Part shown: piece after piece, positions 55,239 through 56,663 of the stretch
Position numbering within the stretch: the stretch's first letter is position 1
Layout of the letters: each line of letters starts with the position of its first letter
Origin: Rhodospirillaceae bacterium
Lineage (GTDB): Bacteria; Pseudomonadota; Alphaproteobacteria; TMED109
Direction: 5' to 3'
DNA length: 64,000 nucleotides
Assembly: GCA_902615805.1 (NCBI GenBank)
Contig: CACMQH010000002.1
Coordinates: 1-64,000 of the forward strand
Program-made: the position numbers and the translations under genes
Notes under the pieces: model-generated
What the model was told of the DNA's origin: nothing
Seen by the model: only the letters and a program-made list of their open reading frames with translations
The model's database searches: none

Positions 55239-55457
55239 ATGCCAAAAGAAGATGTTTTAGAATATGAGGGTGTAGTATTAGAAATACTTCCAAATGCAAT
55301 GTTCAAAGTAAAACTAGATAATGATCATGAAATTTTAGCTCATACAGCTGGTAGAATGAGAAAACATAGAATAAGAATATTGGCAGGTGATAAAGTTACA
55401 GTAGAAATGTCAACATATGATTTGACAAAAGGTAGAATAATTTTTAGGCATAAATAA
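55239..55457 (+). CDS. infA: Translation initiation factor IF-1
   Basis: IF-1 binds the ribosomal A site during initiation. The 72-residue S1/OB-fold protein begins [20 protein letters not shown] and contains [20 protein letters not shown], all canonical. AAAGGAGAG at the correct spacing precedes the ATG. It is followed within 20 bases by the maf reading frame. Confidence 0.96.
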
Positions 55458-55473
55458 TTAAGGTGTATTTAAA

Positions 55474-56040
55474 ATAAGTAATATAATTTTATCTTCTTCA
55501 TCATTAGCTAGACAAGAAATCCTAAAAAGAGTTAATGTTTCTTTTAAAGTATTTAAACCTAACATTGATGAAACACCCATAGATAAAGAAACTCCTCAAA
55601 ACTTAGTCAAAAGAATATCATCATTAAAAGCTGAAGAGGCACTTAAACAATATAAAAGGCACTTAATAATAGCAGCAGATACTATTTTATATTCTAGAAA
55701 AAATTTTTTTCATAAAACAACTAATAAAGGGCTAGCAGAAAAAAATTTAAAGTTATTGTCCGGCAGAAGACATACGATTTTTACTGGACTCACAATCATA
55801 GATAAAACTCATAATAAATTCTTTTATTTAACCAAAACCAAGATAAAGTTTAAGGTTTTAAATGAAATTGAAATTAAAAAATACTTAACTCTAAATGAGT
55901 GGAAAAACAAAACAGGATCTTATGCTATTCAAGGTTATGGGGCTTTTTTTATTAATTATATATCTGGTTCCTATTCAGGTGCTATAGGATTACCTTTAGA
56001 AAAGTTATATTATGTATTCAAAGATAAGAAAATATTATAG
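55474..56040 (+). CDS. maf: Maf-type nucleotide pyrophosphatase, start codon ATA
   Basis: Maf proteins hydrolyse non-canonical or canonical nucleoside triphosphates. The open frame runs from 55462 and encodes all Maf landmarks: ILSSSSLARQEILKR, NIDETPID, IAADTIL, LLSGRRHTIFTG and IQGYGAFFINYISGSYSG. No ATG, GTG or TTG exists in frame before 55756, well inside the conserved region. The best start is ATA at 55474 (giving SNIILSSS next), with AAGGTG 8 bases before it; this gives 188 residues. The stop overlaps the rlmE start. Confidence 0.8.
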   Translation: MSNIILSSSSLARQEILKRVNVSFKVFKPNIDETPIDKETPQNLVKRISSLKAEEALKQYKRHLIIAADTILYSRKNFFHKTTNKGLAEKNLKLLSGRRHTIFTGLTIIDKTHNKFFYLTKTKIKFKVLNEIEIKKYLTLNEWKNKTGSYAIQGYGAFFINYISGSYSGAIGLPLEKLYYVFKDKKIL

Positions 56041-56663
56041 TGAAAAGAACTAACAGTCAGAATATTTGGTTAAAAAGACAAAAAAAAGATGTTTTTGTAA
56101 AGCTATCTAAAGCTAAAGGTTATAGATCTAGAGCAGCCTTTAAACTAATAGAGATAAACAAAAAATTTAAAATTATAAATCAAAATAGTAAGGTAGTTGA
56201 TTTAGGTGCAAGCCCAGGTGGGTGGACACAGGTTGTAGCAGAGCTACAAAACAAAAAAAATCAAATAATAGCTATAGATAAAAAACAAATGGAGCCAATT
56301 GAAAGTTGTAAATTTATATATGATGATATATCAAATTTTCTAAAATATAATGAAACTTTAGAAAGAAATTATTTTGATGTAATTCTTTCTGATATGGCTG
56401 CTAATTCTTCTGGGCATAGGTTTACAGATCAGGCTAATGCAGAAAAAATTTATTATCTTGCTCAAAATTTTGCATTAAAATATTTAACAAAAAATGGAAG
56501 CTTCGTTTGCAAATTTTTTAGAAATTCCTTAGAAAAAACTATTTTACAAAATATAAAGCAAAGATTTAGTCTTGTGAAAATTTATAAACCAAATTCAAGT
56601 AGAAAAGACTCCAAAGAGATTTATTTAATAGCAATTGGTTTTAATAATTTACATAAGGATTAA
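56040..56663 (+). CDS. rlmE: 23S rRNA (uridine-2'-O-)-methyltransferase RlmE
   Basis: RlmE (FtsJ) methylates U2552 of 23S rRNA. The 207-residue protein shows YRSRAAFKLIEI near 29, the SAM loop VVDLGASPGGWTQV, the K-D-K-E tetrad signs in SDMAANSSGHR and GSFVCKFF. It starts with GTG at 56040, overlapping the maf stop by one base. In the alphaproteobacterial set its neighbour is usually guaB, as here. Confidence 0.92.
   Translation: MKRTNSQNIWLKRQKKDVFVKLSKAKGYRSRAAFKLIEINKKFKIINQNSKVVDLGASPGGWTQVVAELQNKKNQIIAIDKKQMEPIESCKFIYDDISNFLKYNETLERNYFDVILSDMAANSSGHRFTDQANAEKIYYLAQNFALKYLTKNGSFVCKFFRNSLEKTILQNIKQRFSLVKIYKPNSSRKDSKEIYLIAIGFNNLHKD

Follow-up and report, generated by a model that had tools for sequence, protein, structure and literature searches.

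Probable AUA initiation of maf, and apparent near-cognate start codons at about 2% of conserved genes, in an AT-rich alphaproteobacterium

Near-cognate start codons are known from infC, the gene for initiation factor 3 (IF3), which is autoregulated by IF3 and starts with AUU in E. coli, AUC in Streptomyces, and AUA in S. aureus. An earlier note on the DNA studied here had cited the AUU of E. coli infC, and we likewise take ATT to be that start; ATT is also the codon aligned with the proposed maf start in one relative (G002, below). The infC systems and maf share a near-cognate AUH start behind a Shine-Dalgarno (SD) sequence, and the genome studied here has its own infC with a conserved ATA; however, the product of maf is not an initiation factor, so autoregulation would not be expected, and control of maf by IF3 is hypothetical. 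In S. aureus, AUA starts have been proven by ribosome profiling and reporters, with about 10% of AUG output, and ccpN and citZ start with AUA and cvfC1 with AUU (PMC13009471). The likeness lies in genes other than infC that have conserved AUA/AUU starts and a strong SD, with low output in S. aureus, but only a handful of cases in one genome is described there (PMC13009471), against about 10 of ~440 conserved genes, CTG among the codons, here. The E. coli pcnB gene starts with AUU (Binns and Masters 2002, cited in PMC13009471) and is a comparable non-infC housekeeping gene held low by its start codon, but one gene only in that genome. Streptomyces sigR has a GTC start that was proven by Western blots and is repressed by IF3; it resembles maf in having a conserved non-standard start missed by annotation, but differs in the codon, in encoding a stress sigma factor, and in that its start is proven (PMC5472188).

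The maf gene considered here lies in the window, i.e., the whole 64,000-nucleotide stretch of DNA that was analysed, on contig C2 of an assembly that totals 1.18 Mb in 50 contigs (75.5% complete, GC 28.5%). We denoted the window's own genome as G000; G001, G002, G003, G004, and G005 belong to the same genus (g1). The maf stop-to-stop frame (55462-56040, 192 codons) is located between infA and rlmE (Table 1). The earlier note had described a Maf frame open from 55462 without a standard start codon until a TTG at 55756, and AAGGTG followed eight bases later by ATA; the sequence agrees on both counts, and this TTG is the single ATG, GTG, or TTG in the frame. The note had also placed the TTG downstream of the IDE and AADT motifs, which holds and can be sharpened, as the complete Maf signature, six residues from S10 to K81, lies upstream; because the TTG encodes residue 95, its product would be without any of them. 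Fusion of maf to the infA frame, which would have refuted the note, is ruled out, because the infA stop (55455-55457) is followed by a stop in the maf frame (55459-55461).

Table 1 Features of the maf locus (window positions) and genes of the same genome without a standard start at the proposed site (contig:positions in G000; SD, or SD in G000/G005, then proposed starts)
Feature	Position	Strand	Details
infA (IF-1)	55239-55457	+	Upstream gene; stop 16 bases 5′ of proposed maf start; TIGR00008, E = 8e-35
Shine-Dalgarno TAAGGTG	55459-55465	+	AAGGTG at 55460-55465; aligned spacing 7 to ATA
Rival element GTG TAT TTA AAA TAA	55463-55477	+	Slippery heptamer T TTA AAA at 55468-55474, in -1 relation to maf
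Proposed maf start ATA	55474-55476	+	Aligned codons ATT (G002), ATA/ATT (G005); residue numbering
maf CDS	55474-56040	+	188 residues + stop; PF02545; PDB matches 1ex2, 4p0e; dN/dS 0.23-0.32
TTG, earliest standard start codon in frame	55756-55758	+	Residue 95; not useful as start
rlmE	56040-56663	+	GTG start; 1-base overlap with maf stop; NF008390, E = 2e-48
infC (IF3)	C1:347274-347774	-	No ATG/GTG/TTG before conserved region; L051; relatives L048-L050, L052-L054
rdgB	C5:35858-36472	-	AAGGA; ATT (G000)/ATT (G005)
nadD	C3:11117-11740	+	AAGGA; ATT (G000)/ATT (G005)
lnt	C11:21291-22835	-	TAAGGAG; ATA (G000)/ATT (G005)
trmB	C11:19443-20135	-	AAGG/TAAGG; ATA or ATT (G000)/ATA (G005)
phoH	C11:24097-25062	-	GGAG/AGGAG; ATA (G000)/ATA (G005)
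HNH nuclease	C9:20677-21243	-	AGGAG/AAGGAG; ATT (G000)/ATA (G005)
Class I/II aminotransferase	C7:29404-30699	+	AGGAGG/TAAGG; ATT (G000)/ATT (G005)
Tim44-like	C5:24706-25284	+	AAGGAG; CTG (G000)/CTG (G005)

The product of the frame matches Maf nearly from end to end (PF02545: E = 6e-45, profile positions 1-185 of 187; TIGR00172: 144 bits against a curated cut-off of 117). The signature residues of the family are S10, R13, E33, K52, D69/70, and K81/82 (PMC3899018). Counted from ATA 55474, they fall at S10, R13, E33, K52, D69, and K81, which is the published YceF numbering, and all six are invariant in seven relatives. In untagged solved Maf chains, residue 2, 3, or 5 aligns with residue 4 of the ATA-started protein. 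The window protein is thus like the Maf/YhdE/YceF nucleotide pyrophosphatases in its full-length match and six signature residues, and its gene differs by the non-standard start; the subfamily-specific residue 12 is Ala, against Arg in YhdE and an aromatic residue in YceF (PMC3899018). By profile and signature, the product is a Maf nucleotide pyrophosphatase, its enzyme activity being inferred. The genome also encodes a second Maf paralogue (C1:326310-326873, minus strand; L002), which is 27% identical to maf and apparently starts with TTG.

The start region was compared with those of close relatives. In the nearest species (G002, L003; Maf 85% identical), the codon aligned with ATA is ATT, the SD is identical, and the 87 bases 55416-55502 differ only at 55476, the third position of the start codon. 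In G005 (L004; Maf 61% identical), the junction reads TAA CTA TTA GGT AAA ATA ATT AAA AAT, with TTAGGT as SD; none of its three frames offers a standard start from the infA stop to the conserved Maf residues, and the maf start of G005 is ambiguous, either ATA or ATT. Since two more species of the genus have no standard start at this site, its absence here is neither a sequencing error nor chance. The earlier note would have fallen had relatives shown ATG at this codon and the base here proved to be an error, and no relative within the genus was seen with ATG. G001 and the other AT-rich genera mostly have a TTG a few bases past the infA stop, with no clear SD. Most likely, as inferred from this distribution without a tree having been built, the TTG start of maf was replaced by AUA/AUU, and an SD gained, within the genus. 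In G014 (L007, ~1475-1503), the TTG after infA is one base out of frame across a stretch of some 15 A residues, through either a homopolymer sequencing error or slippage.

We consider it very probable that maf is functional and that its translation begins at AUA 55474, although initiation is inferred and there are no expression data. ATA 55474 is the best start because its SD is normally spaced, counting from it reproduces the published residue numbers, and the nearest species has ATT at the aligned codon; the rare AUA start suggested by the earlier note thus stands as the best reading. The AAGGTG would position the 30S subunit on maf, perhaps with the assistance of ribosomes terminating on infA 16 bases upstream. 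Only the first two bases of AUA would pair with the initiator tRNA (anticodon CAU), and initiation should therefore be weak and sensitive to IF3, an inference from published work on E. coli infC and Streptomyces sigR (PMC5472188); in vitro, IF3 disfavours weak third-base pairs (PMC10158994). A stable structure over the maf start region was looked for and none was found. The start, TTG in most relatives, would have drifted to AUA/AUU in a lineage that may tolerate AUA, AUU, AUC, CUG, and perhaps ACG starts for low-demand enzymes, with strong SDs presumably compensating.

The earlier note had implied that maf is a lone case, which did not hold: about 10 genes of G000 appear to share a near-cognate start, including infC with ATA. 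We took the stop-to-stop frames common to G000 and G005, removed shadow frames, and read the remainder by hand (524 pairs, of which 491 were bounded upstream and 441 had at least 90 aligned residues). A first census had also yielded many antisense shadow frames and conserved leaders, which we discarded. Ten of the encoded proteins were checked with Pfam and NCBIfam; the RimI-like and ParB-like proteins were named by eye. About 10 of ~440 conserved G000 genes (2.3%) have a putative near-cognate start at normal SD spacing, and G005 has a few more. The ATA of infC is conserved in G000 and six relatives, in none of which does a standard start precede the conserved region; the layout is AGGAGGT-N6-ATA in the genus, and G007, G010, and G014 (genera g3 and g6) retain the ATA. 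The HNH nuclease has as its proposed start ATT in G000, G001, G002, and G004 and ATA in G005, each behind AGGAG or better, and it starts with ATG, TTG, or GTG in other genera. For rdgB, the start is ATT in G000, G002, G003, and G005, ATA in G001 and in G014, G017, and G020 (genus g6), and ATG in G007, G010, and several others; G005 has a TTG 11 codons upstream, without SD. The Tim44-like gene has CTG in g1, g3, and g6, and GTG and TTG in two outgroups. These outgroup comparisons are biased and do not measure rarity elsewhere, because the genes were chosen as start-less in g1. A TTG lies 12 codons upstream of the aminotransferase start in G000. Other genes vary within the genus: dnaQ has ATC in G005 and TTG in G000 behind the same AAGGAG, the gene at G000 C1:322642 has ATG in G000 and ATT in G005, and the RimI-like gene has ATG in G000 and ACG or CTG in G005. 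The ParB-like gene of G005 has AAGGAG and ATT.

Two further loci were noticed. ZapE (G000 C3:32490-33530, minus strand) has no standard start near its conserved N-terminus in G000 or G005, only an A run and ATA without SD. Upstream of the dapF ATG, 20 codons that are not part of DapF (G000 C3:47036-47095; G005 C49) are almost identical in the two genomes, possibly a conserved leader.

Near-cognate starts come with unusually strong SDs, as in S. aureus (PMC13009471), with the reservation that the statistics are post hoc. In random 12-codon intragenic windows, a near-cognate codon with an SD of at least 5 at a spacing of 4-8 occurs in 4.0%, against 8 of the 10 start-less G000 genes with such a codon and SD (binomial test: P = 3e-10, post hoc, the genes having been partly recognised by their SD). 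An SD of at least 5 is present in 70 of 609 ATG genes and 19 of 101 TTG genes of G000. The anti-SD at the 16S end of G000 is normal (CACCTCCTT). The initiator tRNA (L060 4063-4139, minus strand) has the anticodon CAU, and in our reading of the fold A29:U41 replaces the classical G29:C41; a lineage-specific initiator tRNA was rejected as an explanation, given that other families of the class carry a tRNA with 100% identity to it. Loss of KsgA was also rejected, with a strong match in G000 and the gene present across the family. No obvious change at conserved positions of IF3 was seen by eye, an inspection that is not conclusive.

Is maf instead a decaying gene that has lost its start, untranslated or yielding only a useless C-terminal fragment from TTG 55756? 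We hold this to be quite unlikely, although two observations point that way. One is the second Maf paralogue, which is, however, just 27% identical. The other is the ratio of amino-acid to silent changes between G000 and G002, which is 20:7 in the N-terminal half of maf and 13:27 in the C-terminal half (Fisher's exact test: P = 0.001) and could reflect relaxed selection on the N-terminal half. The silent rate of that half is only 0.13 against G002, compared with 0.26-0.36 in hisD, UPF0262, and rlmE (infA is also low, 0.17), and its amino-acid rate of 0.10 is far under the neutral level of about 0.3, so a deficit of silent changes explains at least part of the 20:7 ratio. Against G005, the dN/dS of the same half is 0.33. 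For the whole gene, dN/dS is 0.23 against G002, 0.30 against G005, and 0.32 against G001 (neighbouring rlmE: 0.17 to 0.26), which we read as purifying selection on the Maf protein. No stop or frameshift has arisen in three species at a silent divergence of about 0.4 to 1.0, the six signature residues are intact, and the SD and junction are conserved. The shortage of silent changes against G002 spans infA and the first half of maf (window 55239-55755).

A start at GTG 55463, followed by a -1 shift at T TTA AAA just 5′ of a stop, has only a slight chance of being correct. The heptamer fits X XXY YYZ with a stop directly after it, and both are kept in G002; conservation of the heptamer carries little weight because the whole region is nearly identical there, and the post-heptamer frame of G002 stays open three codons further. 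The GTG is abutted by the SD at zero spacing, the heptamer is absent in G005, where all three frames ahead of the conserved residues are devoid of GTG, ATG, and TTG, and the other start-less genes have no such slippery element. Equally slight is the chance that ribosomes remain on the mRNA after infA and reinitiate nearby, the exact codon being of minor importance and the SD dispensable. The infA stop 16 bases upstream of the maf start would allow it, and most relatives have a TTG a few bases past that stop and no SD; but an SD is found in all three start-less species, and other start-less genes have the same layout, so coupling to infA more likely assists initiation than accounts for it entirely. 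That AUA means Met in this lineage, as ATA at the proposed starts of maf, infC, lnt, and phoH might suggest, deserves virtually no credence, since ATT, ATC, and CTG are also among the proposed starts and, of 1971 internal ATA codons, most are matched in G005 by ATA/ATT/ATC and only 1% by ATG, an alignment by which internal ATA is Ile.

AUA and AUU starts are already known (infC, pcnB, ccpN, citZ, cvfC1), and maf, read as starting at AUA, joins them as a new member. The literature was searched for near-cognate starts in this bacterial group and none was found; the density of about 2% of conserved genes looks new relative to that literature, with no control census outside the genus. It is a tentative and rather doubtful proposition that AUA, AUU, AUC, and CUG are regular starts at a percent-level share throughout an AT-rich alphaproteobacterial clade, and that its members, among them nadD, lnt, trmB, phoH, and the house-cleaning NTPases Maf and RdgB, make up a translational regulon governed by IF3 abundance, with infC itself started by AUA. 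In this lineage, gene finders that assume ATG, GTG, or TTG would miss or cut short some 2% of conserved genes (maf, nadD, rdgB, trmB, and lnt among them), and the corresponding metabolic steps could be falsely scored as absent in reconstructions. The lineage offers natural material on how strict bacterial start-codon choice needs to be, and a system in which to ask whether a strong Shine-Dalgarno permits looser choice and whether IF3 abundance regulates genes other than infC.
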